A model generated the notes under the pieces. It searched no databases. It was not told where the DNA came from and saw only the letters and a program-made list of their open reading frames with translations. From positions 496,001 through 560,000 of the forward strand of contig NZ_JAKMCP010000001.1 in the NCBI RefSeq assembly GCF_022662105.1: DNA of 64,000 nt, written 5' to 3'. The stretch is from Aestuariivivens sediminis (GTDB lineage: Bacteria; Bacteroidota; Bacteroidia; Flavobacteriales; Flavobacteriaceae). Shown here in pieces: positions 19,204 through 34,600 of this stretch; within the stretch, counting starts at the first letter, position 1; every line of letters starts with the position of its first letter. The translations under genes were made by a program, and so were the position numbers.

Positions 19204-19474
19204 TACAATTGGGGTTACGTTTTTATGGGAATGCTAGTGCCCTTAGGAGTAAATATAGATTAAATTAGGGAAATCCGCACCATACCCTTTCTGATGTTCC
19301 AATGCCTGCGGGATTATTAGACGCTAGGATTTAGAAAAATTTATCATTTTATGGCATACAGGTATTGCGGATAAAAACACGGATTATTGTTATTTATGGG
19401 TTAAAGTGTTGGGATAAAACCATATATTGTTTGCATATAACAAGTTGTGCTTCATTATCGCAAACAACTAACCA
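19204..19474. other. Left edge of the cassette array
   Basis: This gene-free stretch separates ordinary chromosome from the cassette block. No full palindrome is present. The first cassette boundary is GTTGTGC at 19444-19450, preceded by CATATAACAA, which resembles the right arm ATACACAAACAA of the site at 29938. It could be the remnant of an attC or the primary attI-like site. No integrase gene or promoter reading into the array is recognised here. Confidence 0.45.
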
Positions 19475-20263
19475 ATGATAAAATTCTTTAGAAAAATTCG
19501 CCAGCAATTACTCGCCGAAAATAAATTCAGTAAATATCTAATTTATGCTATTGGTGAGATTGTTCTTGTAGTTATAGGAATATTGATTGCATTATGGATT
19601 AATAACCTTAACCAACAAAGAAAAATAAAAACAGAGGAGCAAGTTGTTTTAAAGCAACTTAAAAATGAATTTACCATTAATCTAAAACAGTTAAACTCCA
19701 AGATAGATATACGAAATGATATGCTGAAAGACTTTGAAGATTGCTTAAACTATTTCGCAAATCAAAAAATAGAAAGCGATTCTTTATTCACAGCTAAATT
19801 AGGCTCACTACATCTACCACTAACCTTTGACCCCATCCAAAAAGATTTAGTTGGTTCGGGTAGCATTCAAATAATCTCAAATAAAGAGTTGAAAAGTCTT
19901 CTCACTAATTGGACATCTGATGTTCATCAATTGCGAGAAATGGAGCTGTTATATGTGAACTATTATACGGGTTCTATTATGCCCTTCATTGACAAAACCG
20001 GAATAGGAAGAGATATCCTTAAAAGATTTTGGGAAGATAGCAATAGAACAGTCTTTTTATTGGCAAATGAAAACGTTAATTACAGAAAAATAGAACAGTC
20101 TAATTTATCAATCAACTATAGAGAACTGCTGAAAAACTATGAACTAGAGAGTATTATTTCTCATGCCTACGGATTAAGCCTCACGAATAATTATGAATCA
20201 CAAGCTTTGAAAAAGCATATTAATAAAATATTAGAAATATTGGATTTGGAAATAAAAAAATAA
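19475..20263 (+). CDS. Cassette 1: DUF6090 membrane protein
   Basis: This 262-residue protein has an N-terminus typical of DUF6090: a basic amphipathic start (FFRKIRQQLLAENKFSKYL), then one membrane helix (about residues 27-43, IGEIVLVVIGILIALWI) and a helical domain rich in Lys, Asn and Leu. The function is not known. The family is common in Flavobacteriaceae as scattered single genes. The gene starts 24 bases after the boundary GTTGTGC, whose first nine bases are repeated in reverse complement just after its stop codon. Confidence 0.85.
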   Translation: MIKFFRKIRQQLLAENKFSKYLIYAIGEIVLVVIGILIALWINNLNQQRKIKTEEQVVLKQLKNEFTINLKQLNSKIDIRNDMLKDFEDCLNYFANQKIESDSLFTAKLGSLHLPLTFDPIQKDLVGSGSIQIISNKELKSLLTNWTSDVHQLREMELLYVNYYTGSIMPFIDKTGIGRDILKRFWEDSNRTVFLLANENVNYRKIEQSNLSINYRELLKNYELESIISHAYGLSLTNNYESQALKKHINKILEILDLEIKK

Positions 20264-20268
20264 CGAAA

Positions 20269-20401
20269 GCACAACACCATGTATAATTAATTGCTTGGTC
20301 ACTGTCGACTTACGAACATTCCTTCGGAATATTCTATCTGTGATTTATTTGCTAAATTACATGCTTAACCACGCAACTAACCATACACCGAACCGTTGTA
20401 G
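20269..20401 (+). repeat. attC-like site 1
   Basis: The left box is GCACAAC (20269-20275) and the right box GTTGTAG (20395-20401). The inner arms are ATGTATAATT and CATACAC. The centre holds a hairpin GAACATTCC/GGAATATTC around TTC. The left box matches the 5' edge of its own cassette (GTTGTGC at 19444) better than the right box, so the right box belongs to the next cassette. Confidence 0.75.
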
Positions 20402-20419
20402 GTAATTAAAAATGCAATC

Positions 20420-22135
20420 ATGAAATATTTTATTCTTTTAATCGGATGTATAACTGTGATGAGTTGTGTAGACAATACAAAAACTAACAAAAGTTATCCT
20501 TCAATAGCTAAATTGGCCGATTCCTATTATGAAAGGACTTTGGAAACATTCCCCGAAAACGCCTATGAAGCAGACATAAAACTTGAAAACCATAATGGTA
20601 TCACTTCAAATCAATTAGCAGACCTAGCAATATGGGAAAATTATGAAGACAGCCTGTATGTTGAATTGTTAAAATTGAAAGATAGGCAAATCCCTAAAAA
20701 AAAAGATAAAATTACCTATTGGCTTTTAAAAGAAGAATTAGAGTCAAGTATCGAGTTACGAGTTTGTAAAAGAAATCTTTGGGACGTAAATCATTTGAGT
20801 GGATGGAAATCCCGATGGATCTCATTAGCTGAATATCAACCAATAGGTTCAGAAGAATTAAGAGTGCAAGCCTTTGAACGTTGGAGTAAATTTCCAATAT
20901 TTGTAACAACCGAAATCAACAATCTTAAAAAAGGTCTGGCAGAAGGCTATTCCATGCCAAAAGAAATAGTGGATCTCGTAATCGAACAACTCCAAGTATT
21001 ACATGATTATTCCATTGAAAACTCTCCCTTTATGTCGCCTGCCAAAAGAGATGACAATCCTAAATTTAAAGAAAAATGGGAAGAATTGGTAATCAATAAG
21101 ATCCTACCTGCACTTTCAGAATATCAACAATATTTGGTATTAGAATATAGACCAAAGGCTAGAGATGAAGTTTCAGTTGTAGCCTTACCAAATGGAAGTG
21201 AGTGTTACCAAGCATTTATCAGATCAATGACAACAACTAATAAATCAGCTGAAGAGCTGTTTGAATTAGGGCAAAAAATCGTATCTGCCAATGAAACAAA
21301 AGTGTCAGAAATTGGTTTTGAGGTTTACAAAGAACGAGATTTTGCTAAAATCATTGATTTGATAAATAACGATCCATCTGACAAGTTTATAACAAGTGAA
21401 GATATTTTGGAGGTTAATTCAAAACTACTCGAAAAGGCTAAAAAAGAATCAGAAAAATGGTTCATTATGTTGCCATCTACAGAAGTGACAATTAAACCGT
21501 ACGAGGCTCATGAATCAGGAATTGGAAGTTATGAACCAGCAATGGGAGATAATCCAGCCTATTACCGTATCAACTTAAACAATCTTGAACAGCAAAAAAG
21601 AAGTTTTAACGAAATACTCACGTTTCATGAGGCTTACCCTGGTCATCATTTACAAATTGGGCTAGAAAAGGATATTAAAGGTCTACATTCAATTTCTAAA
21701 TTAATATACTTTGGGAGTTATGTAGAAGGATGGGGAAGATATAGTGAACAATTGGCAGAAGAAATGGGATTGTACGACAGCAAATTGGCACTTATGATAC
21801 GTCGTGCTTGGCCATCAAGAGGCCTAGTGGTAGATCCTGCAATTCATACAAAAGGATGGTCTAAAGAACAAGCCATTGATTTTATGACGGAGTCTGGATA
21901 TAGTGCTGATATAGCATTAAGTGCTTATTATAGAAGTATTGTTTGGCCAGCTCAATTGACGTCATATGATACTGGTGGTGAAGAAATAAAAGCACTTCGT
22001 AAAATGGCTGAAGAGAAGCTGGGAGATCAATTTGACATTAAAGAGTTTCACTCTAAAATATTGGAAAATGGTTCAATTCCATTAAGTTCTTTAAGACACA
22101 ATATAAATGAATGGGTTAGAAACAAGAAAAATTAA
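20420..22135 (+). CDS. Cassette 2: DUF885 peptidase-like lipoprotein
   Basis: This 571-residue protein has a lipoprotein signal (VMSC at about residue 16). The family mark is FHEAYPGHH with His403, Glu404, His409 and His410, a zinc-peptidase-like HExxx-GHH motif, followed by the SYVEGWGRYSEQLAEEMG block of DUF885. Such proteins resemble M3/M32-type metallopeptidases, but substrates are largely unknown. Length is normal and the reading frame intact. It starts 19 bases after the boundary box at 20395 and its own end box CCTACAAC complements the bases there, so the gene moves as one cassette. Confidence 0.88.
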   Translation: MKYFILLIGCITVMSCVDNTKTNKSYPSIAKLADSYYERTLETFPENAYEADIKLENHNGITSNQLADLAIWENYEDSLYVELLKLKDRQIPKKKDKITYWLLKEELESSIELRVCKRNLWDVNHLSGWKSRWISLAEYQPIGSEELRVQAFERWSKFPIFVTTEINNLKKGLAEGYSMPKEIVDLVIEQLQVLHDYSIENSPFMSPAKRDDNPKFKEKWEELVINKILPALSEYQQYLVLEYRPKARDEVSVVALPNGSECYQAFIRSMTTTNKSAEELFELGQKIVSANETKVSEIGFEVYKERDFAKIIDLINNDPSDKFITSEDILEVNSKLLEKAKKESEKWFIMLPSTEVTIKPYEAHESGIGSYEPAMGDNPAYYRINLNNLEQQKRSFNEILTFHEAYPGHHLQIGLEKDIKGLHSISKLIYFGSYVEGWGRYSEQLAEEMGLYDSKLALMIRRAWPSRGLVVDPAIHTKGWSKEQAIDFMTESGYSADIALSAYYRSIVWPAQLTSYDTGGEEIKALRKMAEEKLGDQFDIKEFHSKILENGSIPLSSLRHNINEWVRNKKN

Positions 22136-22137
22136 CT

Positions 22138-22274
22138 GCCTACAACACCGTGTATAATTCATTGCTAGTACTCGCCTACTTACGAAAGTCCTCGCGGATT
22201 TTCTATTCGGTTTGTATTTGCTAAATTATGTGATTAAACCACGCAACGAAATCATACACAAGACCGTTGTAGCC
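22138..22274 (+). repeat. attC-like site 2
   Basis: The left box is GCCTACAAC (22138-22146) and the right box GTTGTAGCC (22266-22274). Arms GTGTATAATTCATTGC and GCAACGAAATCATACAC pair with one unpaired base. The central hairpin is GAAAGTCC/GGATTTTC around TCGC. This is the cleanest example of the site type, about 137 bases long. Confidence 0.8.
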
Positions 22275-22307
22275 AATTAAACAAAAGAAACACAAATAAA
22301 ATAGTTT

Positions 22308-22442
22308 ATGAACAAAGACGTTTTTTTACTTTTCTTTAATGCTATTTTATCGGTTGTTCTAGCTGCCATAATTGTATATCGAATTTTAAAAAAGGAGTAT
22401 AAACCCAAGATTAAAGAATTAGAAAAAAAAGCTAAAGGATAA
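22308..22442 (+). CDS. Cassette 3: 44-residue single-span membrane protein
   Basis: ATG at 22308 opens a 44-codon frame that ends exactly one base before the symporter start at 22443. It begins MNKDVFLLFFNAILSVVLAA, a single membrane helix, and ends in a Lys/Glu-rich tail. Small one-helix proteins directly upstream of sodium:solute symporters occur in other systems as accessory subunits, and the tight junction suggests translational coupling. It has no recognised family. Confidence 0.6.
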   Translation: MNKDVFLLFFNAILSVVLAAIIVYRILKKEYKPKIKELEKKAKG

Positions 22443-24035
22443 ATGACTATCACCATTTTTATAATATCAATAGTTGTTTACGTTTTAGCAGGTATTTTCA
22501 TTGCTAGAAAAGTAAAGAATAGTGACGACTTTTTTGTTATGGGAGAAAGAGGTTCTACACTTTTAATAGTTGGCACACTAGCTGCAACATATTTAAGTGC
22601 TGTCACTCTTTTAGGTATATCGGGAATATCATATGCTGAAGGGCCACTTGTAATTGCAGCAACAGGTTCTTTTGGAGCGTGGATTGGCACTTTGTTGGCC
22701 ATTATATACGTAGGTAGAAATATGAAAGCTTTGGGCTGTAAGACGATGCCTGATTTTTTTAGAGAACGCTTTAGAAACAAAACCGTAACTAGTCTTGCCA
22801 CCATTATAATGATTATAGGGCTTTTGGGCTATGGTGTTATTCAACTTATTGGTGCAGGTCTTCTAATTGAAGAGTTAACAGGTATAAATTTTGCTTTAAT
22901 TATCATAATTTTTGTAATTGCCTTACTGGCTTTTTCACTATATGGAGGTATGTATGGAGTTGTGGTTACAGATACAATTATGTTCTTTATCATGATTGCA
23001 GTATCGGCCATTGTTGCTCCATGGTTGATACATAAAGCTGGATTTACAGAAATGAAGTCTTTGTCAAATACTTTAGAAGGATATTGGACTTTAGCGGGAA
23101 CACAAAATAGACCCTTAAGTTTTACCTTTTCACAATTCTTGGTTTGGATTGTCTTTTTTACTTGTACTCCTGCTCTTGTATCAAGAGTTTTTCCTGCCAA
23201 AAACGATTTTGTAATACTAAAATCTACACTTATTGGCGTTTTTTTAGCCGCATTTATGCAAATACCCATTTTTTTGGCTGCCAGTGGCATGCAGGTTATT
23301 CAACCTGGAATAGAACAAACAGACAGTGTTATGATTATTGCTTTTTTAGAGCACGTGCCTTCTGTATTAGGTGGTATTGGTCTAGCAGCTTTAATGGCAG
23401 CCATAATGTCAACCACATCTACACTTTTTGTAATTGCTGGATTTGGATTGTCACGAGATTTATATCAGAATTTGAAGAAAGAAACGATTAGTGAGAAAAA
23501 ACTAATGAAAGTAAATAGAATTGCACAATTAATAATTGGAGCAATAGTAGCTGGTATCGCAATTTCAAGACCGGCTGCGATCTATTGGATTTCAATATAT
23601 GCTGGAGCACTTTTTGGAGTTGGTTGGTTACCATCCGTAATTGCAGGTTTAGAATGGAAACGAATGAACCATAAAGCAGCAATAACCAGTATGGTACTAG
23701 GTGTTTTAAGTTTTATATGTATAACTGAATTGGAAAAAATAAACCTTATTACACTTCCAAATTTACTTGACCCATTAATGATGGCTTTTTTAATTTCCGT
23801 TGTGTCATTAATATTTGTCGCTTTAATTACAAAACCCAATAATAATGAAGTTCAATATTATTATATTATAAAAAACACCAAACCCTCTGGTTCTACTATC
23901 AAACATTTTTTAGCAAGAGAAAATGGACTCTCTGAATTAAAAAAAGAGTGCCTAAATGTAAAAACTTTAATTGCAGTCGTTGTTTTATTAGCATTTGCTC
24001 TTTGGGGATTTTTATTTTACAAACTTGGACTTTGA
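22443..24035 (+). CDS. Cassette 3: sodium:solute symporter family transporter
   Basis: This 530-residue protein has about 13 hydrophobic segments and the form of the SSS family: a first helix then KNSDDFFVMGERG, TYLSAVTLLGISG, a GAWIGTLLAI segment, MPDFFRERF and the central FTCTPALVSRVF. It should import a small solute with sodium. The substrate cannot be named from sequence. It forms a two-gene cassette with the 44-residue protein. Its cassette end GGCTACAAC complements GTTGTAGCC at the cassette start over ten bases. Confidence 0.9.
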   Translation: MTITIFIISIVVYVLAGIFIARKVKNSDDFFVMGERGSTLLIVGTLAATYLSAVTLLGISGISYAEGPLVIAATGSFGAWIGTLLAIIYVGRNMKALGCKTMPDFFRERFRNKTVTSLATIIMIIGLLGYGVIQLIGAGLLIEELTGINFALIIIIFVIALLAFSLYGGMYGVVVTDTIMFFIMIAVSAIVAPWLIHKAGFTEMKSLSNTLEGYWTLAGTQNRPLSFTFSQFLVWIVFFTCTPALVSRVFPAKNDFVILKSTLIGVFLAAFMQIPIFLAASGMQVIQPGIEQTDSVMIIAFLEHVPSVLGGIGLAALMAAIMSTTSTLFVIAGFGLSRDLYQNLKKETISEKKLMKVNRIAQLIIGAIVAGIAISRPAAIYWISIYAGALFGVGWLPSVIAGLEWKRMNHKAAITSMVLGVLSFICITELEKINLITLPNLLDPLMMAFLISVVSLIFVALITKPNNNEVQYYYIIKNTKPSGSTIKHFLARENGLSELKKECLNVKTLIAVVVLLAFALWGFLFYKLGL

Positions 24036-24050
24036 TTGCTTAAAATAACT

Positions 24051-24187
24051 GGCTACAACAACTTGTAAGCGCAATAACGGCTGAATTTCCTAATCGGAAA
24101 TTCAACTCGTTTTGCTAAATGAGGTGCGCCAGCGGAAAGTAATCACGCACTTTCCCGTTACTGACGCTTACACAAACCGTTGGGCAT
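24051..24187 (+). repeat. attC-like site 3
   Basis: The left box is GGCTACAAC (24051-24059) and the right box GTTGGGC (24179-24185), the latter close to the classical GTTRRRY. The arms are TTGTAAGCG and CGCTTACA, with further pairing of ATAACGG to CCGTTAC. The central hairpin GAATTTCC/GGAAATTC is perfect. Left and right boxes do not complement each other beyond GTTG. Confidence 0.75.
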
Positions 24188-24222
24188 ATTAGTGAATGAA
24201 TCACAAAACCAATATTTAAAAT

Positions 24223-24699
24223 ATGAATACTAAAAATTTACCACTCATTGCTTTACCAATTTTGTGTCTATTGTTTTCATGTACACCTAAGGTTGATTCA
24301 GGTACTGAAAAAACAAATGTAATAGAAGCTATTAACCGATTGTATCAGTCCTTTGAAGATAAGGATATCGACCTCATGTCAGAAGTAATGGCTCATGACG
24401 AAAGTATGTTAAGTTTTGGTACAAGTATTTCCGACCTCCACAATAGTTGGTCTGAATGGAGAAATAATCACATAGCTCAATTTGAAGCATTTGATAAGGC
24501 CAAAATCACCTCCAAAAAAATGAATGTCTATCTGAGTCAGAATAGCCATGTGGCATGGTTTGCGGATGTAAGTGATTGGATTTTAATCATTGACAATGAA
24601 AACATTCAAATGAATGATATTAGAATTACAGGTGTACTTGAGAAAAGAAATAACTCTTGGAAAATTGTTCAAATCCATGCTTCAGTTCCTCAGAACTAA
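24223..24699 (+). CDS. Cassette 4: NTF2/SnoaL-like lipoprotein
   Basis: This 158-residue protein has a lipoprotein signal (LCLLFSC, Cys at about 20) and an NTF2-like/DUF4440 alpha+beta barrel. It has an early helix (NRLYQSFEDKDIDLMSEVM), HVAWFADVSDW and a final RNNSWKIVQIHASVP strand, the usual end of SnoaL-like folds. These folds bind small ligands or act as enzymes, and no specific activity is evident. It is the only gene of its cassette. The cassette start GTTGGGCAT is the exact reverse complement of ATGCCCAAC at its end. Confidence 0.85.
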   Translation: MNTKNLPLIALPILCLLFSCTPKVDSGTEKTNVIEAINRLYQSFEDKDIDLMSEVMAHDESMLSFGTSISDLHNSWSEWRNNHIAQFEAFDKAKITSKKMNVYLSQNSHVAWFADVSDWILIIDNENIQMNDIRITGVLEKRNNSWKIVQIHASVPQN

Positions 24700-24718
24700 T
24701 CTGAATAAAAAACTACAA

Positions 24719-24855
24719 TGCCCAACAACGTGTATAATCCATAGCTCGGTTAGCACTTTAAGGGGAACTTTGTATATTTAGGTAGTTATAGGATTCCTAC
24801 TCTGAAAAATCTCTGATTTTTCCTCGCTACGGAATCATACACAATACCGTTGGCA
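24719..24855 (+). repeat. attC-like site 4
   Basis: The left box is TGCCCAAC (24719-24726), a perfect RYYYAAC box, and the right box is GTTGGCA (24849-24855). Arms are GTGTATAATCC and GGAATCATACAC with one extra base on the right. The central hairpin is GAAAAATC/GATTTTTC around TCT. Confidence 0.75.
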
Positions 24856-24867
24856 CTTATTTAAAAA

Positions 24868-25689
24868 ATGAATAGAAAAAAATTATTTGTGTTTTTAATA
24901 CTGACCTTTTTATGGTCTTGGATACTTTGGATTATTGGATTAAACTCCCTATCAGACGAAATTAATCCAGAGTCAATTGGTAAATTTTTGGTTTTCTTTT
25001 TTGTTGGGGTATATGGACCAACAATTTCCGGAATAATTACAACTCTATTCTTTGATGGACTCAAAGGTTTATTTGAATTAATCAAAAAGCTTTTTATATG
25101 GAAAGTCCCTTTTAAATATTATTTATACATAATTTTTTTACCTCTAATATTTGTCATTATTGGTATTGCACTTTACAGCCAATTTATAGGGGAAATTGGA
25201 GATTTTGATAAAATGGCATATCTATCGATACCAACAATATTATTAACGGGATTGTATGCTGGACCTTTGGGAGAAGAACTAGGGTGGAGAGGTTTTTTAT
25301 TGCCCGAATTTCAAAAAAAATATTCAAACTTGAAAAGTGCAATCATTATTGGATTTATATGGTTTGTTTGGCATATTCCACTATGGTGGGCACCATTCGG
25401 AACCTTGGTTAGTGGAGAACCAATATCTATAATTCCTGTAATTGCATATTTTACTATGCTAATCTGCCTATCCATAATAATTACTTGGTTAGTAATTAAT
25501 TCAAAGGGAAGTGTTCTTATTGCAATTTTATTTCACTTGTCAATTAATGCAGGAATCGCATTGCAGTTTTACCCTGAATTGAATATGGATTTCAAAAAAG
25601 TACATTTATTATCGAGCATCGGAATGTTAATATTTACTGGATTTTTAGTAGTAAAGAATAAATTAAAAACAATTACCAACACCGTGTAA
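24868..25689 (+). CDS. Cassette 5: CPBP-family intramembrane metalloprotease
   Basis: This 273-residue polytopic membrane protein has the CPBP (Abi/CAAX protease) motifs: EE-x3-R as Glu136, Glu137 and Arg141 (EELGWRGF), then FVWH with His169 and a third motif near HLSINAG. Family members cleave prenylated proteins or act in bacteriocin self-immunity, and the bacterial substrate is usually unknown. The coding region runs 16 bases into the following attC-like site, so its last residues (TNTV) come from the recombination site. It starts 13 bases after its cassette boundary box. Confidence 0.88.
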   Translation: MNRKKLFVFLILTFLWSWILWIIGLNSLSDEINPESIGKFLVFFFVGVYGPTISGIITTLFFDGLKGLFELIKKLFIWKVPFKYYLYIIFLPLIFVIIGIALYSQFIGEIGDFDKMAYLSIPTILLTGLYAGPLGEELGWRGFLLPEFQKKYSNLKSAIIIGFIWFVWHIPLWWAPFGTLVSGEPISIIPVIAYFTMLICLSIIITWLVINSKGSVLIAILFHLSINAGIALQFYPELNMDFKKVHLLSSIGMLIFTGFLVVKNKLKTITNTV

Positions 25690-25837
25690 AAATAATTGCT
25701 GGTTCAGGCCTACTTACGAAAATTTGCTAACGCACCGTTCGCACTTCGTGCTCGTGTCTCGCGGATTTTCTATTCGGTTTGTATTTGCTAAATTACGTGC
25801 TTACAAGAAGCAACAAACCTTAGCCGAATGGTTGTAC
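25674..25837 (+). repeat. attC-like site 5
   Basis: The left box is TACCAAC (25674-25680), inside the end of the CPBP gene, and the right box is GTTGTAC (25831-25837). The centre, 25718-25770, is enclosed by GAAAAT/ATTTTC and carries a nested GCAC/GTGC hairpin. It matches 29805-29857 in site 8 at 51 of 53 positions. The right arm CAACAAACCTTAGCCGA does not pair with the left arm and recurs in site 6. Confidence 0.65.
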
Positions 25838-25871
25838 TTCATTATTGACCAACCAATGAACAATAATGAAG
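25837..25871 (+). repeat. Perfect inverted repeat at the start of cassette 6
   Basis: CTTCATTATT (25837-25846) and AATAATGAAG (25862-25871) form a perfect 10-bp stem with a 15-base loop, beginning in the boundary box itself. A 13-codon frame MNNNEVLKRSLNK starts at 25856 inside it. It may be a leader or a relic of a lost cassette. Confidence 0.5.
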
Positions 25872-25946
25872 TTCTTAAAAGAAGCTTGAATAAATGATAT
25901 TATATATGATTTTGAAAGTCATTGCCACAATTACAAAATTATTAAA

Positions 25947-26414
25947 ATGAAAAACACGATTATTATTTTATTAGGGTTATTAGTATTAAGCTGTAGTTCA
26001 GAGGACAACAATCAAGATCAACAGTTAAACTTTTTAGAGCAATATGAGGGCTCTGTATTTTTCAGGGAAACAACCACCGGAATAACCTATATAAGGTTTT
26101 TTAATAATGAAAATGCACCTCTTGATTATCATCTTTTATTTAAGACCTTAACCCCTAATGACTGCTTTGTTAATTTACCTTTTGATGTCTCTGAACCAGA
26201 TGCGGTTGTAACTAAACTAGAATCTAATTTAATGGAGATAAGTCGACCAATGTGGGTTGATACAGTATTAGTAAGAACTTACACAGTATCTAATAATGTA
26301 TTGTCTACAGAAAATGAATGGTATGCTAATGGTGAGCTATTCTTAACAAATTATAATGACCCTTTATCAATCTCTTCGGTAAATGTCGATACGCTACCTT
26401 TATGTAGTAATTAA
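25947..26414 (+). CDS. Cassette 6: small lipoprotein of unknown function
   Basis: This 155-residue protein starts with a clear lipoprotein signal (LLVLSCSSEDNNQDQ). The acidic and Asn-rich stretch right after the Cys fits surface export in flavobacteria. The rest, including ITYIRFFNNENAPLDYH and paired strands later on, matches no family I recognise. Unlike other cassettes it lies 109 bases after the boundary, and the boundary box GTTGTAC does not complement the end box CCTCAAC. The unit may therefore be a fusion of two cassettes. Confidence 0.75.
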   Translation: MKNTIIILLGLLVLSCSSEDNNQDQQLNFLEQYEGSVFFRETTTGITYIRFFNNENAPLDYHLLFKTLTPNDCFVNLPFDVSEPDAVVTKLESNLMEISRPMWVDTVLVRTYTVSNNVLSTENEWYANGELFLTNYNDPLSISSVNVDTLPLCSN

Positions 26415-26440
26415 TCCATTCGATTCAGCCTTTAAAATAC

Positions 26441-26560
26441 CCTCAACTAATTCATTGCTTCTGACTTTCCATAGGAAAATCCTCGCCCTGAACTTTGTAT
26501 GGCTCTTTTTACTATCTTAGTTTCCAACCAACGCAACAAACCTTAGCCGAGCCGTTGTAG
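26441..26560 (+). repeat. attC-like site 6 (degenerate)
   Basis: The left box is CCTCAAC (26441-26447) and the right box GTTGTAG (26554-26560). The left inner sequence TAATTCATTGCT is conserved but the pairing arm is lost. A short hairpin TTTCC/GGAAA around ATA remains. The right arm CAACAAACCTTAGCCGA is shared with site 5. Confidence 0.55.
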
Positions 26561-26571
26561 CACATTAAAAA

Positions 26572-28092
26572 ATGAAAAATATAATAACCATCGTATTATT
26601 ATGGTTGGGAGCAAATCTTTTTGCTCAAAACTTAAGCTTAGAGTTTGAAATTATCCAAAGGCTTTGGGTTGGAGATTCTCACATGGAAAACGGGCGGCTT
26701 TTTATTATTTTCAGCAAAGAAGAGCCTAAGTCAATTTTTAATGGAATACAATATCCAGACTTAAGAATGAATCCTGTATTTGGAGTGGATATTTCTGATT
26801 GGAAAACTGATACTCCTTTACGCATAGAAGGAAATAATCTTTATGGATTCCCAATCAAAAATATCATTGAACTTCAAACAGGAAATTGGTATATCTATGC
26901 TCTTTTTAAGTCATTCGATTCCCATGGGAAAATAATGGAAGAAGAGCAAATTTATAGTGAGCCAGTGTTGATAAATATTGATTCATCCAATAAAACACAA
27001 CACTTTCAGTTGTCTTTGGATAAGACGGTAGGTAGTGCTACACTTCCTGATGACAAAAAACACTTTAAATACGAATCAATATCAAGTCGTTTACTCACCG
27101 ATTTTTGGAAAAAACCCATGTCCGTTAGATTTCAAGTGGCATTACCAAAATCTTATTATTCAGATTTAGAAAAAGAATATCCGCTTTTGGTTATGATAGG
27201 CGGATTTGGAGAAAGATTCTACAACAAAATAATTAGTGAGAAGGAATTATTAGACGAGAGCACTCCTGAAATGGTTATTATTCTTTTGGATTCAAAAGCA
27301 CCTTTTGGAGACTCCTACCAAATGAACTCTTCCAATAATGGTCCTTATGGTGATGCATTAGTTACAGAGGTCATTCCATACATTGAGTCAAAATACCGTT
27401 GTATAGGTAATTCCACATCAAGGTTTTTAACAGGGACATCAACAGGAGGATGGGCATCATTAGCATTACAAGTATTCTATCCTGAATTCTTCAATGGAGT
27501 TTGGTCAACCTGTTCTGACCCAGTTGATTTTAGGCAGATGGAACTTATGAATATCTATGAAGATAAAAACGCATTTATTAACAGGCATGGCTTGGAAAGA
27601 CCAGGAATGAGGGATATTAATGGAGAACCCAGATATACATTAAGAACAGAAATTTGGGCAGAAAACATTTTAGGGATTGAAAATTCATATCATAATAGTG
27701 GTGGACAGTGGGGAAGTTGGAATGCCGTATTTAGTCCTAAAGATACAATCACAGGTTTGCCAAGAATGATTTTTCATCCTGAAACAGGAGTATTAGACAA
27801 AAATGTAGCCGAAGCTTGGAAAAAATATGATTTAAGATTGTTCCTGTCTGAAAATTGGGATGAGTTAGGTTTTAAGTTGCAAGGAAAATTACATATTTGG
27901 ATGGGGACGGCAGACAGTTATTATTTAAACAATGCAATGGTATTATTTGATAGATTTTTGAAATCAACATCGAATCCTAAATCTGATGCTGAAATTAATT
28001 TCATTTGTGGGGAAGGTCATGCCTGTGATAGCGAAATACCATTAAAAATAATGATGCATCAAATGTTGGAAAGAATGGAGAAACCGAGATAA
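26572..28092 (+). CDS. Cassette 7: secreted esterase-like alpha/beta hydrolase
   Basis: This 506-residue protein has a signal peptide ending ANLFAQ. The N-terminal 180 residues form a beta-rich domain. The C-terminal part is a putative esterase (esterase D / enterochelin esterase type) with nucleophile Ser290 in GTSTGG, an acid in WMGTADS and the His in GEGHACDSE. The substrate is unknown. The cassette start shares its first 13 bases (from GTTGTAGCAC) in exact reverse complement with the cassette end, the longest such match in the array. The gene starts 11 bases after the 7-base boundary box. Confidence 0.85.
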   Translation: MKNIITIVLLWLGANLFAQNLSLEFEIIQRLWVGDSHMENGRLFIIFSKEEPKSIFNGIQYPDLRMNPVFGVDISDWKTDTPLRIEGNNLYGFPIKNIIELQTGNWYIYALFKSFDSHGKIMEEEQIYSEPVLINIDSSNKTQHFQLSLDKTVGSATLPDDKKHFKYESISSRLLTDFWKKPMSVRFQVALPKSYYSDLEKEYPLLVMIGGFGERFYNKIISEKELLDESTPEMVIILLDSKAPFGDSYQMNSSNNGPYGDALVTEVIPYIESKYRCIGNSTSRFLTGTSTGGWASLALQVFYPEFFNGVWSTCSDPVDFRQMELMNIYEDKNAFINRHGLERPGMRDINGEPRYTLRTEIWAENILGIENSYHNSGGQWGSWNAVFSPKDTITGLPRMIFHPETGVLDKNVAEAWKKYDLRLFLSENWDELGFKLQGKLHIWMGTADSYYLNNAMVLFDRFLKSTSNPKSDAEINFICGEGHACDSEIPLKIMMHQMLERMEKPR

Positions 28093-28103
28093 TAAATGAA
28101 AAT

Positions 28104-28174
28104 GTGCTACAACACCAGATATGAAGTAATACTCCGGATCGGTTGTACTATTCATTGCCAAACCGTTAGATGCC
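28104..28174 (+). repeat. attC-like site 7 (short)
   Basis: The left box is GTGCTACAAC (28104-28113) and the right box GTTAGATGCC (28165-28174), where GTTAGAT fits GTTRRRY fully. Only about 65 bases lie between the box ends, like the short attC sites of mobile integrons. A small CCG/CGG hairpin is in the middle. The two boxes belong to different cassettes and do not pair well. Confidence 0.65.
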
Positions 28175-28192
28175 AATAAAAGCCAGCACGAT

Positions 28193-29755
28193 ATGAAAAA
28201 ATTAATATTTACAAGTCTTCTTTTCTCTTTATTAATTAGTAATGTTTGCTACGCTCAATATTCCTCCCAACAAGTTGATTCTATTATGGGCGATGCAATG
28301 GACAAATTCAATGTTGCTGGAGTAGCAGTTGCAATAGTAAAAGATGGTAAGATAATCCATTCAAAAGGCTATGGTGTTAAATCATCTGTCACAAAAAGCC
28401 CTGTAAATAACCATACTAATTTTGCAATTGCATCAAATAGTAAAGCCTTTACTACAGCGGCACTTGCAATTTTAGTCGAGGAAGGTAAAATAACATGGCA
28501 AGACAAAGTTAAGGATCATATTCCTGAGTTTAAGATGTATAATCCTTATGTAACTGAAAACTTCAATATTCAAGACCTTCTTACGCACAGAAGCGGACTA
28601 GGTTTGGGTATTGGGGACTTAATGTTTTTTCCCGATGGCTCAAGTTTTACGATAGATGATTTATTATCTAGTTTTCAGTATTTTAAACCTGTATCTGCTT
28701 TCCGAACACAGTTTGATTACGATAACTTATTGTATTTAGTAGCTGGTGAAGTTATTAAACGAGTTTCGGGTATGTCATGGGAAGATTTTATATCAGAGCG
28801 AATTTTTAAACCTCTAAATATGGATAACTCATACCCGTCTTTAGATAGAATAACAGATAAAAAAAACTTAGCAAAACCTCATGATGCGAATTCAGGAACA
28901 TTAAAAGTCCTACCTGATTTTCAAGAAATGATAAATGGTGCTGCAGGTGGTATTTATTCAAATGTTGAAGATATTTCAATTTGGATGCTCATGCATTTGA
29001 ATAATGGAAAGTATGGAGATAATTTAGAAAATGAACTATTTACAAAAGAATCACAACGTGAAATGTGGAAAATACACACAGTAACTAATGTTAACAGAAA
29101 TCCACGTTACAATTCACATTTTGCTGGTTATGGATTAGGTTGGCAATTATCGGATATTAAAGGAAATATGAGCGTTTCACATACAGGAGGTCTGCCAGGA
29201 ATGTTATCAAAGACAATTATGATTCCAGATATTAATTTAGGCGTTGTTATCTTAACTAATACAAGTGATGATGGTGCTGGCATTTTTAATTCAGTTTCAA
29301 ACACCATTGTTGATAGTTATTTGGGTTTAAGTGATTTTGGGTGGATAGATAAATATGCAGCTTATTTAATAAGCAGAAAAGAAGATGGAGATGCCGTTTC
29401 TAAAAAAGTATGGGAAAGAGTTGAAAGTGTTGCGGATTCTCATATAAATTATGAAGACTATATGGGTATTTACAAGGATGCTTGGTTTGGCAAGGTGGAA
29501 GTTTTTTTAAAAGGGGATAAATTGTGGATGAAATCACATAAATCACCAAAACTTAATGGGGAAATGTTTTTTTATAGAGCAAATACATTTGCCGTTAAGT
29601 GGGAATATCAAGATATGAATGCTGATGCTTTTGCAATGTTTTCTTTGAATGAAGAAGGCAAAGCACAAAGTATAAAAATGAAAGGGATATCGCCTAACAT
29701 AGACTTTAGTTTTGATTTCCAAGATTTAGATTTAATAAGAGTTGATACTAATTAA
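28193..29755 (+). CDS. Cassette 8: class C beta-lactamase-like serine hydrolase
   Basis: This 520-residue protein has a signal peptide ending CYAQ. The penicillin-binding/class C fold shows Ser81-x-x-Lys84 (SNSK), Tyr176-x-Asn178 (YDN) and H330-T-G-G, the usual variant of KTG in the esterase/peptidase members. A C-terminal domain of about 110 residues (DYMGIYKDAWFGKVEVF) resembles DUF3471. Such proteins hydrolyse esters or D-amino-acid peptides, and true lactamase activity is less likely given the HTGG variant. Its cassette start GTTAGATGC pairs with end box GCACCTAAC at 8 of 9 positions. Confidence 0.88.
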   Translation: MKKLIFTSLLFSLLISNVCYAQYSSQQVDSIMGDAMDKFNVAGVAVAIVKDGKIIHSKGYGVKSSVTKSPVNNHTNFAIASNSKAFTTAALAILVEEGKITWQDKVKDHIPEFKMYNPYVTENFNIQDLLTHRSGLGLGIGDLMFFPDGSSFTIDDLLSSFQYFKPVSAFRTQFDYDNLLYLVAGEVIKRVSGMSWEDFISERIFKPLNMDNSYPSLDRITDKKNLAKPHDANSGTLKVLPDFQEMINGAAGGIYSNVEDISIWMLMHLNNGKYGDNLENELFTKESQREMWKIHTVTNVNRNPRYNSHFAGYGLGWQLSDIKGNMSVSHTGGLPGMLSKTIMIPDINLGVVILTNTSDDGAGIFNSVSNTIVDSYLGLSDFGWIDKYAAYLISRKEDGDAVSKKVWERVESVADSHINYEDYMGIYKDAWFGKVEVFLKGDKLWMKSHKSPKLNGEMFFYRANTFAVKWEYQDMNADAFAMFSLNEEGKAQSIKMKGISPNIDFSFDFQDLDLIRVDTN

Positions 29756-29758
29756 TTA

Positions 29759-29944
29759 GCACCTAACAATGGCTAAAAGTAATTGCTTGTTCTCCCCTAC
29801 TTCTGAAAATTTGCTAACGCCCCGTTCGCACTTCGTGCTCGTGTCTCTCGGATTTTCAGTTCGGTTTGTATGCGCTCAATGAGGTGCTTAAAACCCTTAC
29901 CTGCGGCAGGCAGGCGCAACTAATCATACACAAACAAGTTGGGC
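29759..29944 (+). repeat. attC-like site 8
   Basis: The left box is GCACCTAAC (29759-29767), with ACCTAAC a perfect RYYYAAC, and the right box is GTTGGGC (29938-29944). The central 53 bases at 29805-29857 are nearly identical to those of site 5. It contains a CCTGCC-type repeat at 29899-29914, inserted before the right arm ATCATACACA. It is the longest site of the array and fills the whole 285-base gap before the sigma factor. Confidence 0.7.
29899..29914. repeat. CCTGCC palindromic repeat copy 2
   Basis: ACCTGCGGCAGGCAGG resembles the repeat at 11612-11631, which has two more bases in the middle. It lies inside attC-like site 8, so this element can insert into the recombination sites. Confidence 0.5.
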
Positions 29945-30040
29945 ATAATATATCTCCAAAGCATATTCTTTTTATTATAATTATCTCATTTGCCTGTAAT
30001 AATTCCTACTTTATACCACTAACTAAAAAAAACAATATTA

Positions 30041-30532
30041 TTGAGTAGCGATTTTTATAAAACATCCATTTTACCGTTTGCTGGAATAATCATCAAATTA
30101 TGTCGAGCGTACACAAACTCGCAAGAAGATTTTGAAGATTATTATCAAGAAGTGTGTTTACAAATTTGGAGGAGTAAAGACAACTTTCGTGAAGAATCTC
30201 AATGGAGCACTTGGGTATATCGAATTTCATTAAATGTGTGCTTGACATTATTGAAAAAAAAGAAAAACAATGTGCAGCATTTTGTTTCTGATTCTATAAC
30301 ATCTGCAGAAACCGAAGACAACCACGCGTTTTCAGACGAATCTCTAAATTTATTATACGATGCTATTAGAAAACTATCAGAAATAGATAGAGCGGTTATT
30401 ATGCTGTATTTAGAAGAAAAATCGCAAAAGGAAATTGCTGAAATTACAGGAACAAACCCCAATAATATTGGTGTACGAGTTAAAAGAATTAAAATTAGAT
30501 TAAAAAAAATATTAGATGGAAAAATCTATTGA
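30041..30532 (+). CDS. Cassette 9: ECF-type RNA polymerase sigma factor
   Basis: This 163-residue protein starts at TTG 30041. No ATG fits the full region 2, whose first helix begins FYKTSILPFAGIIIKL. Region 2 continues with DFEDYYQEVCLQIWRS and STWVYRISLNVCLTLL. Region 4 is LSEIDRAVIMLYLEEKSQKE plus a helix-turn-helix. It would direct RNA polymerase to a small gene set, probably including its own cassette. It overlaps the next gene by 17 bases, and that gene is then its likely membrane-bound controller. A transcription factor travelling in a cassette array is unusual. Confidence 0.88.
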   Translation: MSSDFYKTSILPFAGIIIKLCRAYTNSQEDFEDYYQEVCLQIWRSKDNFREESQWSTWVYRISLNVCLTLLKKKKNNVQHFVSDSITSAETEDNHAFSDESLNLLYDAIRKLSEIDRAVIMLYLEEKSQKEIAEITGTNPNNIGVRVKRIKIRLKKILDGKIY

Positions 30533-31172
30533 AAATATATGGAAAGAAGGTTTTCTTAAGAGTGATGCATTAGTAGCACCCCAAATAAATGATCTATACA
30601 ACCAAAAATCAATTCATATCATTGATAAGTTTAAAAGAATGTTTCGCATTAATTTGATTGCAATTGTAGCATTCTCATTTACGTTTTTAGTGATCTCATT
30701 TTTTATAGGTATTCCCATAACAGGTATTATATTTTTTGTAACCCTTTCTGTATTGGTAATTATCAATAAGAAGTTATTAAATGATTTAAATAAAATAGAT
30801 TTTGGTGTTAGTAGTTACCAGTATTTAAAGGTATTTAACCAATGGATTAACAAACAGGTTTCCATCAATAAGAAAATTTCAAGATTTTTGTACCCTATTA
30901 TATTTATATCCATGATTTTGGGGTTTTGGTTTAAAGATGCAGAGGGTATGCCTTTAGGAGAAAGATTAGTAAATGAAGTTCTCAAAAGTTTCCCTGATAT
31001 TTATTTAATATATGGAATCCCACTAATAGGAATTGCAATCGTATTGCTAATCTTAGTTTTACTGGCGCTTTTTGGAGGTCGAATTTATAAATGGGATTTA
31101 AACATAGTTTATGGAAGAATATTCAAAAAACTAGAAGAATTAATGACAGACATAGAAAGTTTAAGAAGTTAA
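30516..31172 (+). CDS. Cassette 9: membrane protein, likely anti-sigma partner
   Basis: This 218-residue protein has four hydrophobic segments (about residues 45-65, 68-85, 125-140 and 163-190) and a soluble N-terminus of about 40 residues that could bind the sigma factor. It overlaps the sigma gene by 17 bases, so the two are translated together. I recognise no named domain and no zinc-binding anti-sigma motif, so the role is inferred from position alone. Confidence 0.75.
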   Translation: MEKSIENIWKEGFLKSDALVAPQINDLYNQKSIHIIDKFKRMFRINLIAIVAFSFTFLVISFFIGIPITGIIFFVTLSVLVIINKKLLNDLNKIDFGVSSYQYLKVFNQWINKQVSINKKISRFLYPIIFISMILGFWFKDAEGMPLGERLVNEVLKSFPDIYLIYGIPLIGIAIVLLILVLLALFGGRIYKWDLNIVYGRIFKKLEELMTDIESLRS

Positions 31173-31273
31173 AACCCATTAAATAAAGTGTTTTTATATA
31201 GATATTTGGAAAAAATAAATTTTAGGTGTAATAATTTTTGATTTGGACCACTAATCAAGAAAACAATAAAATT

Positions 31274-31726
31274 ATGACACTAAAAAACGCCATTAACTTT
31301 CTCGAAAGTTTAAAAACATCGGAAACCAAAAAATCTGAACTTAAGATATATAATCAATTTATTGAGATTCTTATCAAATTAGAAAAAAGAGAATTTAAGA
31401 CAGATGAAATTCAATCTATCGAATTAGAACTTGATAACTTAAATTTAAAATCAAATCCAGAAAACAGTAAAAAGTTCTTCAAAAATGCACTAAGTAAATT
31501 CAAGAGCTTTTTAAAGGATACATTTTCTTTGACTTCCAAGGATTACTATACAAACACAAGTGTAAGTTTAGGAATATTATTTGGCGTTGTAGTTGGAGTG
31601 CTTATAGGTGAACGTTTTGAAAGGTCTTTAGGAATTTCCTTTGGCATCTGCATGGGACTGTTTATTGGAACCTATATCGGTTGTCGTATGGATGCTCAAG
31701 CGAAAGCAGACGGAAATATGCTGTAG
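31274..31726 (+). CDS. Cassette 9: glycine-zipper membrane protein
   Basis: This is a 150-residue protein from ATG 31274. An upstream TTG in the same frame at 31238 would add 12 poor residues. The first 95 residues are charged helices (NFLESLKTSETKKSELK). The C-terminus carries two helices rich in spaced glycines (GILFGVVVGVLIGERF and GISFGICMGLFIGTYIG), a glycine-zipper pair. Function is unknown. It sits 101 bases after the anti-sigma-like gene with no attC-like site between them, so it appears to share the same cassette. Confidence 0.7.
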   Translation: MTLKNAINFLESLKTSETKKSELKIYNQFIEILIKLEKREFKTDEIQSIELELDNLNLKSNPENSKKFFKNALSKFKSFLKDTFSLTSKDYYTNTSVSLGILFGVVVGVLIGERFERSLGISFGICMGLFIGTYIGCRMDAQAKADGNML

Positions 31727-31825
31727 TTAACAGCTATTCAAAAATTTCTCTTACCAAATAACTCAATATTCTTTTTTTAAAATTTAATAGCCGAATACTT
31801 TTCGACCAGAAAAACACATCCTAAA

Positions 31826-33211
31826 ATGAAAACAATAGCATTTGCATTTCTATTATCGATTCTAAATGTTTACTCTCAAGATATCTCCGGAGATTGGAGC
31901 GGAACAGCCAAAAGAGGAGATAAATTAATCACATTCGTTTTTAATATCGAACTGGAAAACGCTACTTATTCGACCACAATGAGTGTCCCTAACTTTAGAA
32001 TTTCTGGTATAAAACCTTCAGCTACAACTTTTACAAACGGAGCGTTAATAATTGATGGATCAAATGTTGGGATGTCTTATGAGGCAGAATTCAATAATGA
32101 ATTACATCAATTTGAAGGGACTTACAAAGAAGGAGGTTTAGTAATGCCTCTAAATTTAAAAAAAGGTGCTGTAAAAATAGTAGACCAACGAAGACCTCAA
32201 GAACCTGTAAAGCCTTACCCTTATTATGAAGAAGAAGTAGTCTTTAAAAACAGTGAAGCAAATGTTTTATTGGCCGGAACATTAACCTTCCCAAATAAAA
32301 ACGGAAAATTTCCAGTTGTAATCTTAATCAGTGGAAGTGGTCCTCAAGACAGAGATGAAACGTTTATGGGGCACAAACCCTTTTTAGTATTGGCAGATCA
32401 TCTTACAAAGAAAGGCATTGGTGTATTGCGTTTTGATGACCGTGGTCAAGGCGAATCTACAGGTGATTTTGGAAGTGCAACAACAGAAGACTTTTCTAAA
32501 GATGTATTGCATGCAATTGCCTATTTAAAAACCAGAAAAGATGTAGACAAAAAGAATATTGGTTTAATTGGGCATAGTGAAGGTGGTATTATCGCACCTT
32601 TGGCAGCTAATAACTCTAAGGATGTTGCATTTATGGTGTTGCTTGCCTCTACTGGAATTTCAGGAGCAGAATTATCTGTAATGCAGTCTAAAACATTAAG
32701 AGAGTTTCCGGTTAAAGATGAAGAAGCTTATGAAAAAAACACAAGAAAAGCCATTGCAATTGTAACCTCGAATAAAAGTGAATCAGAAATTGAACAAGAA
32801 TTGACGACACATTATAATGATTTTTTAATACCAATTTTAGCTTCTTTAAATGTGCCAGAAGAAAAAATCAATTTATTTATAGAAAGACAAGTAAAATCAA
32901 GTATAAAGCCTTGGTCACGCTATTTTTTACAGTACAATCCGTCTGTCGAAATTGAAAAATTACAAATCCCCGTTTTGTCCTTAAATGGCAGTAAAGACAC
33001 CCAAGTTAATGCAAAAATAAATCAAAATGGAATACGTCAGGCTTTAATTAAAGGTGGAAATAAAGATTACAAAATAATAGAATTAAAAGGTTTAAATCAC
33101 TTTTTCCAAGAGTGTAAAATAGGAAAGATGGATGAATACAGAAAAATAGAGCAAACATTTTCTCCAATTGCTTTAAAAGAAATTTCTAATTGGATTCTTA
33201 AAAGGATTTGA
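31826..33211 (+). CDS. Cassette 9: secreted alpha/beta hydrolase
   Basis: This 461-residue protein has a signal peptide ending NVYSQ. A beta-rich N-terminal domain (DISGDWSGTAKRGDKLITFV) is followed by an alpha/beta hydrolase with the oxyanion segment ILISGSGPQDRDE, the GHSEGG elbow with Ser251, and LKGLNHFFQE with the catalytic His. Related bacterial proteins are esterases or peptidase-like hydrolases. The substrate is unknown. It is the last gene of the 3.4-kb cassette 9 and is followed by the attC-like site at 33248. Confidence 0.87.
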   Translation: MKTIAFAFLLSILNVYSQDISGDWSGTAKRGDKLITFVFNIELENATYSTTMSVPNFRISGIKPSATTFTNGALIIDGSNVGMSYEAEFNNELHQFEGTYKEGGLVMPLNLKKGAVKIVDQRRPQEPVKPYPYYEEEVVFKNSEANVLLAGTLTFPNKNGKFPVVILISGSGPQDRDETFMGHKPFLVLADHLTKKGIGVLRFDDRGQGESTGDFGSATTEDFSKDVLHAIAYLKTRKDVDKKNIGLIGHSEGGIIAPLAANNSKDVAFMVLLASTGISGAELSVMQSKTLREFPVKDEEAYEKNTRKAIAIVTSNKSESEIEQELTTHYNDFLIPILASLNVPEEKINLFIERQVKSSIKPWSRYFLQYNPSVEIEKLQIPVLSLNGSKDTQVNAKINQNGIRQALIKGGNKDYKIIELKGLNHFFQECKIGKMDEYRKIEQTFSPIALKEISNWILKRI

Positions 33212-33247
33212 ATAAATCCTAAGAATTTTGTAGAATCAAAATTCTAA

Positions 33248-33379
33248 GCACAACAACATGCACAAGTAATAGCGGTTTGAGTTAGCACCCAAACCGTTTT
33301 TTCGTTTAAATAAAGTATATTGCTATCCGAAAAATAGTCGAATTAAATCCGCTACTGCTCATACACAAACACCTTGGCA
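33248..33379 (+). repeat. attC-like site 9
   Basis: The left box is GCACAAC (33248-33254) and the right box CTTGGCA (33373-33379), where the first base is C and not the usual G, so this site may be inactive. The inner arms GTAATAGCGG and CCGCTACTGC pair, and a CGGTTTG/CAAACCG hairpin lies between them. Confidence 0.65.
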
Positions 33380-33381
33380 AC

Positions 33382-33858
33382 ATGCAAAAAAATGAACTGA
33401 AAATGAACTTTAGAAAAGCGTCAGAAATGGATATTTCAATAATTGTGGAAATGATTGCGGATGATGAGCTTGGAAAAAAAAGAGAAAACTTCCAGAACCC
33501 TTTACCAAAAGAATATTTGAATGCCTTTAAAAAAATTAACTCTGACGAAAATCAAGAATTAATTGTTGTAGAAAACGAAAAATCTGAAATTATTGGAACC
33601 TTACAGTTATCATTCATTCAATATCTGACTTATCGTGGCGGAATTAGAGCGCAAATTGAAGCGGTAAGAATTAGAAAAGATAAAAGAGGACTCGGAATTG
33701 GAAAAACAATGTTTAAGTGGGCTATAAATAGAGCCAAAGAAAGACATGCGCATTTGTTACAATTAACGACTGACAAAACGCGACCGACAGCGATTAAATT
33801 CTATGAAGATTTAGGATTTAAGGCCACTCACGAGGGAATGAAAATGCATTTAAAATAA
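33382..33858 (+). CDS. Cassette 10: GNAT-family N-acetyltransferase
   Basis: This 158-residue protein is one GNAT domain. It shows the start FRKASEMDISIIVEMI, strand 4 IEAVRIRKDKRG, the acetyl-CoA pyrophosphate loop RGLGIG, then AINRAKERHAHLLQL and the closing FYEDLGFKATHEGMKMHL. A second ATG at codon 8 could be the true start, although the first lies only 2 bases after the 7-base boundary box. The substrate is unknown. Such enzymes modify small molecules or proteins, and GNAT genes are frequent cargo in integrons. Confidence 0.88.
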   Translation: MQKNELKMNFRKASEMDISIIVEMIADDELGKKRENFQNPLPKEYLNAFKKINSDENQELIVVENEKSEIIGTLQLSFIQYLTYRGGIRAQIEAVRIRKDKRGLGIGKTMFKWAINRAKERHAHLLQLTTDKTRPTAIKFYEDLGFKATHEGMKMHLK

Positions 33859-33868
33859 AGAAAAGCCA

Positions 33869-34026
33869 GTTGCTAACAAGGTATAACTGCAATTACAGCG
33901 GATTCGACCACCCGTCGACTGCGCTCAGGGCTGGCTGAATCCTTGGAATTGCTAAGGCCAGTGTTTAATCTGAAAATAATCGCTAATTTAATCCGTAACT
34001 GACGGTTATACGAGGCCGTAAGCCAC
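33869..34026 (+). repeat. attC-like site 10
   Basis: The left box is TTGCTAAC (33870-33877) and the right box GTAAGCCAC (34018-34026), where GTA replaces GTT. The arms GTATAACTGCAATTAC and GTAACTGACGGTTATAC pair over most of their length, then GCGGATTC and GAATCC enclose the centre. The long stem is well kept although the right box is altered. Confidence 0.7.
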
Positions 34027-34038
34027 AAACTGAAAACA

Positions 34039-34533: not shown

Positions 34534-34535
34534 AA

Positions 34536-34600
34536 GCCAGTGTTAGCCACTGGCTCTAATCCATGCATTGCCGGCAAAATGCTAAATGTCATTCAACAAT
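34536..34600 (+). repeat. Right-edge remnant of an attC-like site
   Basis: GCCAGTG (34536-34542) and CACTGGC (34548-34554) form a hairpin around TTAGC. GTTAGCCAC at 34542-34550 nearly repeats the cassette 11 boundary GTAAGCCAC in direct orientation. TAATCCATGCATTGC and TGCTAAATG then resemble the left half of the other sites, but no right half follows. The array appears to break off here. Confidence 0.5.

Follow-up and report, generated by a model that had tools for sequence, protein, structure and literature searches.

An integron-like cassette array in Aestuariivivens sediminis whose cassettes carry matching ends

A series of plus-strand genes running from position 19444 to about 34570 of a 64,000-nucleotide (nt) stretch of the Aestuariivivens sediminis genome (G000:C5:496001-560000, here called the window; source genome 3.93 Mb in 13 contigs), very probably makes up the cassettes of an integron-like system belonging to the Flavobacteriaceae, in which each cassette moved as a circle. 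Neighbouring genes are separated by repeated sites of the form ..CAAC-ACC-GTGTATAATTCATTGC ... GCAACTAATCATACAC-NNNACC-GTTG.., and Pfam searches of the window proteins indicated that the genes themselves are mutually unrelated. A preliminary description, made from the window sequence alone, had proposed excision and integration of circular units. This explanation fits best, given that the two ends of a cassette pair with each other and not with those of its neighbours, that homology between genomes starts at the GTT of a cassette, and that recombinase gene, attI-like site and cassettes follow one another in related genomes.

For each cassette, the sequence from its initial GTT onwards was matched against the reverse complement of its own 3′ end, and the length of the exact prefix was recorded. 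The matches for cassettes 1 to 9 were 9, 8, 10, 9, 5, 4, 13, 5 and 4 bases (mean 7.44), against a mean of 4.80 over all re-pairings. Only 16 of the 362,880 permutations reached the observed mean, bearing out the earlier claim that each 5′ edge complements the 3′ end of its own cassette; with a gapped score, 24 of the 362,880 equalled or exceeded the own pairing. The lengths previously quoted for cassettes 1, 2, 3, 4 and 7 are correct, and the four left unquoted (5, 6, 8 and 9) are the short ones. The two boxes of a single site had been said to agree over 3-7 bases, which holds at eight of the nine sites (5, 7, 4, 5, 4, 4, 3 and 3 bases) and fails at the ninth (0 bases). The range originally delimited, 19444-28174, ends at the junction between cassettes 7 and 8 and includes all of cassettes 1-7; the array itself continues to about 34,570. 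Two decayed modules (33372 and about 34018), whose edge is no longer GTT, were excluded from the pairing test; the own match of module 10 is 0.

The same property extends well beyond the window, to 49 arrays of other loci with 207 cassettes, of which 195 are unique (identical cassettes were counted once, and the two locus sets overlap in some genomes). The cassette's own ends matched over at least eight bases in 120 of the 195, compared with 8 of the 195 for the neighbour's end, and the mean own match was 7.17 and 7.42 in the two locus sets versus neighbour means of 4.05 and 4.04. Within-array shuffles (76 and 103 cassettes, 5,000 trials each) gave maxima of 5.2 and 5.4, against observed values of 7.33 and 7.66. 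The own match exceeded the neighbour match in 131 cassettes and equalled it in 33. The constrained site finder misses degraded sites, with 4 hits in the window stretch and none in the second array of the same genome (L018) at the threshold used, and both of these arrays were read by eye; the sites read almost alike on both strands, which makes a reverse-strand control misleading. Cassettes in the relatives' arrays have a median size of 695.5 nt, and the longest open reading frame (ORF) lies along the array direction in 97 of 120, opposite to it in 2, with no ORF of 50 amino acids in the other 21. In one array (L058:3788-7017), cassette edges starting GTTATGTACAAG recur several times, as if one cassette had been inserted repeatedly.

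The matching ends share a common architecture, an arm of 14 nt in which ten base pairs are followed by an almost invariant A facing C (T.G on the bottom strand) and then by about three further pairs. All 120 cassettes with an own match of at least eight bases have an A at position 11 of the 5′ edge, and in all 77 cassettes matching over at least ten this A stands against G, giving A.C on the top strand and T.G on the bottom. Where exactly ten bases match, positions 12-14 match again (1.00, 0.96 and 0.87) and position 15 falls to 0.13. At 65 loci, 98% of the cassettes immediately behind attI likewise have the A at +11. Spacers measure 3 nt and 6 nt in 115 and 105 of 124 sites. The R box consensus RYYYAAC / GTTRRRY is not kept, position 5 being T or C in 64 of 120 cassettes and position 6 in 55 of 120; the window shows no enrichment of the classical core GTTRRRY (115 occurrences versus 138 expected), and an Rfam search returned no match. 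Such arms resemble 14-nt inverted repeats at both ends of a gene, ahead of the site, and each gene might be a small transposon-like element that is bounded by terminal inverted repeats and mobilised by a transposase. We regard this as highly unlikely, since the repeats vary by cassette except for GTT and the A at position 11, which would ill suit a sequence-reading transposase, and since the units are all oriented alike, head to tail, behind an integrase gene and an attI-like site.

DNA folding predictions for 112 of the 113 sites with an own match of at least nine bases (one was dropped for length) gave, with the own arms, −27.4 kcal/mol for the bottom strand versus −23.0 for the top, the bottom strand being better in 111 of 112. 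When the own arm was replaced by the neighbour's, the predicted bottom-strand value was −20.9 kcal/mol, the same as with a random partner (−20.9). This contrast between own and neighbouring arms is partly built in, because the cassettes were chosen for a good own match; the strand difference was not selected for, though the A/G rule contributes to it. The sites are conserved, intergenic and hairpin-forming, as would be expected of terminators or similar hairpins whose ends co-vary in place and which spread with duplications, with no mobility involved. We give this explanation almost no credence: hairpins acting in place should pair the arms of one site, whereas the match joins the two ends of a gene, and in these selected cassettes the in-site pair is predicted to be no more stable than a random one.

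A second cassette row of the same genome, on contig C6, lies behind an attI-like site, GGATAAAACCATATATTTATTGGCATATAACAAGTT, which itself follows a degraded tyrosine recombinase gene (C6:359941-360254; L018:9912-10327) with N-terminal and C-terminal pieces preserved and the middle lost. Matches to the C-terminal piece occur in 89 of 149 family genomes at 1e-10 and in 40 of 149, the source genome included, at 1e-17 or better; of 20 loci at the latter level, 19 yielded an ORF bearing the motif, and 18 of these ORFs are 385-409 amino acids long. In these relatives, an intact integrase of about 390 amino acids is followed by attI and then by cassettes. A collection-wide set comprising the best 80 of 577 relatives, 79 with an integrase ORF, includes Polaribacter, Lutibacter, Winogradskyella, Hanstruepera, Tenacibaculum, Maribacter, Christiangramia and two Bacteroidales assemblies, among others. 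Around these 79 genes, the integrase strand carried 150 sites in 320 kb downstream versus 21 in 712 kb upstream, and the opposite strand 10 downstream and 14 upstream. Array sizes are underestimated because at several loci contigs stop within tens to hundreds of bases behind the integrase (for example L027, L031, L071, L093 and L119), and these contig ends look as if the repeated sites broke the assemblies. In viral contigs, relatives of the integrase are partial or distant (best 48% identity); no cassette row was present in the 7 loci scanned of 80, and no sites were found at viral locus L201.

The attI-like sequence ATATAACN[AC]GTT occurs 12-189 nt (median 33) past the integrase stop codon in 65 of the 79 loci of intact relatives. 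In the window, an attI-like site (19412..19446, plus strand), GGATAAAACCATATATTGTTTGCATATAACAA-GTT, stands directly 5′ of cassette 1 and is of the same sequence type as those behind the degraded C6 integrase and behind the intact integrases of relatives; a pattern search recovered it at C5:515435, and the window reads GGATAAAACCATATATTGTTTGCATATAACAAGTT just 5′ of cassette 1. A search of the window with 19 integrases (tblastn) gave no meaningful hit, and no integrase gene or remnant was found upstream of this site. The other attI-like matches in the genome (C5:702707, C7:272631, C8:14825 and C8:273960) have no cassette row, and genome-wide the pattern occurs no more often than the same pattern reversed (6 and 0 versus 7 and 1). 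The motif TAnnTT[TA]G begins 22-25 nt 5′ of GTT in 34 of 65 attI-like sites versus 6 of 65 shuffled ones; inside attI, it would presumably suit the −7 promoter box of Bacteroidota. Separately, a TTATCC motif, sometimes with GGATAA close by, occurs at the 3′ end of the integrase ORF just before attI (e.g. L053, L056 and L059) and could be a further site for the integrase or a regulator.

Homology between genomes respects the cassette boundaries. With window positions 19444-29937 as the query, 255 of 397 family genomes matched at 1e-20, many of the listed matches being sites alone. Cassette 4 has a copy in a congener (G219) with 99.1% identity over 687 nt, the match beginning exactly at the cassette GTT (24179); there it is the first cassette behind an attI-like site, ATATAACTA, and is followed by another cassette. 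In G246, the match to cassette 8 (87% identity over 1,646 nt) likewise starts exactly at the GTT at 28165, behind a different site, and copies of cassette 5 that are 95-96% identical occur in G189, G261 and G038 with different flanks.

The mechanism that we propose begins with a cassette moving as a circle. In the circle, the two 14-nt end arms would lie opposite one another and form a hairpin of the order R''-L''-loop-L'-R', probably from the bottom strand, and a dedicated tyrosine recombinase, presumably of the integrase family described above, would join this hairpin site to the attI beside its own gene. Insertion would split the R stem, one arm becoming the 5′ edge of the cassette and the other staying at its 3′ end, facing the next cassette. 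The cut would fall within GTT; placing it after the G borrows from integrons, by analogy with the cut position given in PMC8876359. GTT is common to nearly all sites, and the cut position is therefore not readable from the sequence.

Several observations weigh against this mechanism. Own ends match over fewer than eight bases in 75 of the 195 unique cassettes, and in 31 the own match is shorter than the neighbour match; part of these failures stems from finder noise, the threshold used having yielded 21 sites in shuffled DNA against 124 in real DNA. No attI-like site lies within 200 nt in 14 of the 79 integrase loci. The seven-cassette C6 array, an example of the further arrays of this genome in which the preliminary description had placed its refutation test, answers in two ways: gapped alignment favours the own pairs, with 2 of 5,040 permutations as good, whereas by exact prefix the own pairing of this decayed array is not significant (616 of 5,040). 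In the congener that shares cassette 4, no integrase is found among the ORFs listed upstream of its attI-like site. Recombinase searches of the A. sediminis genome recovered only the fragment of this integrase family and no intact copy, and the array may therefore now be immobile; in this genome it is probably either a remnant or dependent for movement on an enzyme supplied from elsewhere.

A rival explanation is that the row is an ordinary cluster of attC sites lacking integron integrases (CALIN), formed by classical cassettes that entered the Flavobacteriaceae and are or were moved by a classical IntI in trans. The sites do follow the attC plan, and the NCBIfam model NF040815 ("site-specific tyrosine recombinase/integron integrase") is just reached by two of five flavobacterial integrases (206-221 bits, cut-off 220). 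Further support could come from the Polaribacter phage P12002L, for which PMC9892861 describes sites as classical attC (CALIN), with no integrase noted with the row, and reports two attC sites assayed with IntI1, of which one failed and one recombined, on the bottom strand only. A row of sites like those of the window is present in P12002L (L195:31118-40946), with the own match above the neighbour match in 5 of 7 usable pairs (an eighth pair is a finder artefact). The IntI1 result is an outside hint of bottom-strand use; it also helps the case that IntI can use some of these sites, if the assayed ones are among them. In this lytic phage, small genes alternate with the sites, which read on the other strand from the annotated genes; the phage is a possible cassette vehicle.

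We nevertheless consider movement by IntI unlikely. The arrays sit behind the other, flavobacterial integrase, the arms break GTTRRRY (a pyrimidine at position 5 in 64 of 120), and the genome has no IntI above cut-off. Among 395 GTDB Bacteroidota genomes, 106 contain a strong match to classical IntI, 105 of these over the cut-off, and only 1 of the 106 belongs to the window's class and none to its order or family. Classical IntI is thus frequent outside class Bacteroidia (105 of the 106 matching genomes); the profile of the flavobacterial integrase matches 110 of the 395, a count that includes relatives without the full N-terminus. In 11 stretches beside IntI genes (a twelfth was too short), chosen to see if classical attC arrays carry 14-nt own arms as well, two site finders recognised hardly any attC sites, one of them a single site and the other sites at one locus only (L300).

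The flavobacterial integrase is, as far as its sequence goes, not a classical IntI. The IntI-specific insertion (about 42 residues; 43 alignment columns) is present in IntI1 alone when it is aligned with the flavobacterial integrases, and the distance between two motifs is 57-59 residues in 71 of 73 flavobacterial integrases (2 unmeasured) versus 100 in 10 of 11 IntI (1 unmeasured). The integron-integrase model TIGR02249 scored the five flavobacterial proteins at 192-213 bits, against a cut-off of 265, in two separate stretches. In a phylogenetic tree, 38 flavobacterial integrases and 10 IntI separate into two clades (Shimodaira-Hasegawa-like approximate likelihood-ratio test, 100 each). The free search grouped the flavobacterial integrases with other Bacteroidota recombinases (89); a constraint joining them to IntI was not rejected (approximately unbiased test, p-AU 0.642), the constrained tree being 8.26 log units better. 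A larger tree placed IntI1, on a very long branch, beside the flavobacterial clade (85).

Xer recombinases, XerA above all (5hxy, 4a8e), are the best matches of the integrase core in sequence and structure. An AlphaFold2 model of the L069 integrase (mean predicted local distance difference test, pLDDT, 87.9) had XerA as its best structural match and IntI4 as its seventh, and the flavobacterial integrase shares its inter-motif length with relatives that lack arrays. It differs from Xer in an extra N-terminal domain, in a SPLD motif near the C-terminus, as in IntI, and in having an attI-like site and a cassette row in place of a dif site. The N-terminal domain modelled alone (pLDDT 92.6) gave the HARP domain of SMARCAL1 (4o66) as the top Foldseek match (E 0.034, probability 0.93), with YciH second, XPB chains close behind and no match at 0.001 or better; the HARP superposition was poor (template modelling score 0.45, root-mean-square deviation 7.3). 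HARP was also the second PDB profile hit (E 0.16), and its Pfam family PF07443 matched 6 of 53 members (best E 0.0011; L069 at 15.4 bits against a cut-off of 25), whereas DUF5710 matched more, 13 of 53 (best 0.0034). None of these values reaches an accepted cut-off, and the likeness to HARP is a lead rather than an identification.

Judged by sequence, the system appears to work like an integron and yet to lie outside the classical definition on two counts, the integrase insertion and the R box, and we therefore call it a variant of the integron. With integrons and CALINs it shares a cassette row in one orientation, an attI-like site by the integrase gene, GTT at the junction, and hairpin sites with R and L boxes, unpaired spacers and a predicted bottom-strand preference. 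It differs from classical integrons in an integrase without the IntI insertion and with an extra N-terminal domain, in having integrase and cassettes on the same strand in the flavobacterial loci, and seemingly in 14-nt cassette-specific arms with a fixed A at position 11; these arms do not keep GTTRRRY. A bolder proposal, which we put forward tentatively and think rather improbable, is a second kind of integron, independent of IntI. A Bacteroidota Xer-type recombinase, bearing a HARP-like N-terminal domain but lacking the IntI insertion, would read a 14-bp cassette-specific stem with a T.G wobble, existing only in the excised circle, so that circles would be armed and array sites disarmed; if true, capture would therefore be favoured over loss.

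Among open-licence papers, preprints aside, no title or abstract opening describing this integrase with its array was found. IntegronFinder 2.0 (PMC9024848) names Salinibacter ruber for the Bacteroidetes; a review (PMC8618304) lists Bacteroidota among the phyla with integrons; and in the main text of PMC8352920, on attC sites by taxon, "Bacteroid" does not occur.

The cassettes of the window, all on the plus strand and given with their sites, encode diverse proteins. Cassette 1 (19444..20394) carries a DUF6090 protein (19475-20263) between arms at 19444-19457 and 20262-20275, its nine-base match being longer with one bulged base, and cassette 2 (20395..22265) a DUF885 protein (20420-22135; arms 20395-20408 and 22133-22146; own match 8, neighbour 7). 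A sodium:solute symporter (22443-24035) occupies cassette 3 (22266..24178; arms 22266-22279 and 24046-24059), in which ten matches are followed by A/G at position 11 and three more, and a SnoaL-like protein (24223-24699) cassette 4 (24179..24848; arms 24179-24192 and 24713-24726; own match 9). Cassette 5 (24849..25830; own match 5) encodes a CAAX protease-like protein (24868-25689); cassette 6 (25831..26553; own and neighbour match 4) has a 155-amino-acid ORF (25947-26414) with no Pfam match. An esterase-family protein (26572-28092) lies in cassette 7 (26554..28164; arms 26554-26567 and 28100-28113), whose 13-base match departs from the A/G rule at position 11, and a PF00144 serine hydrolase family protein (28193-29755) in cassette 8 (28165..29937; own match 5). 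Cassette 9 (29938..33371; own match 4) holds a sigma factor (30041-30532), two ORFs without a Pfam match and a hydrolase (31826-33211); at 3.4 kb, far above the median cassette size, it may be several fused cassettes with inner sites lost. The two decayed modules without GTT edges (33372..34570, the second from about 34018) contain a GNAT acetyltransferase (33382-33858) and a DUF4440-like ORF (34039-34533).

The pattern itself stands well beyond the window. If our reading is true, a parallel cassette-capture system would be common in the Flavobacteriaceae, given the integrase C-terminus in 40 of 149 sampled genomes, and it may have been overlooked because its enzyme is without the IntI insertion and its sites break the R-box rule. 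Such a system would serve as a natural experiment on what an integron needs in order to function and on how the balance between capture and loss may be set through a stem that arises in the circle.

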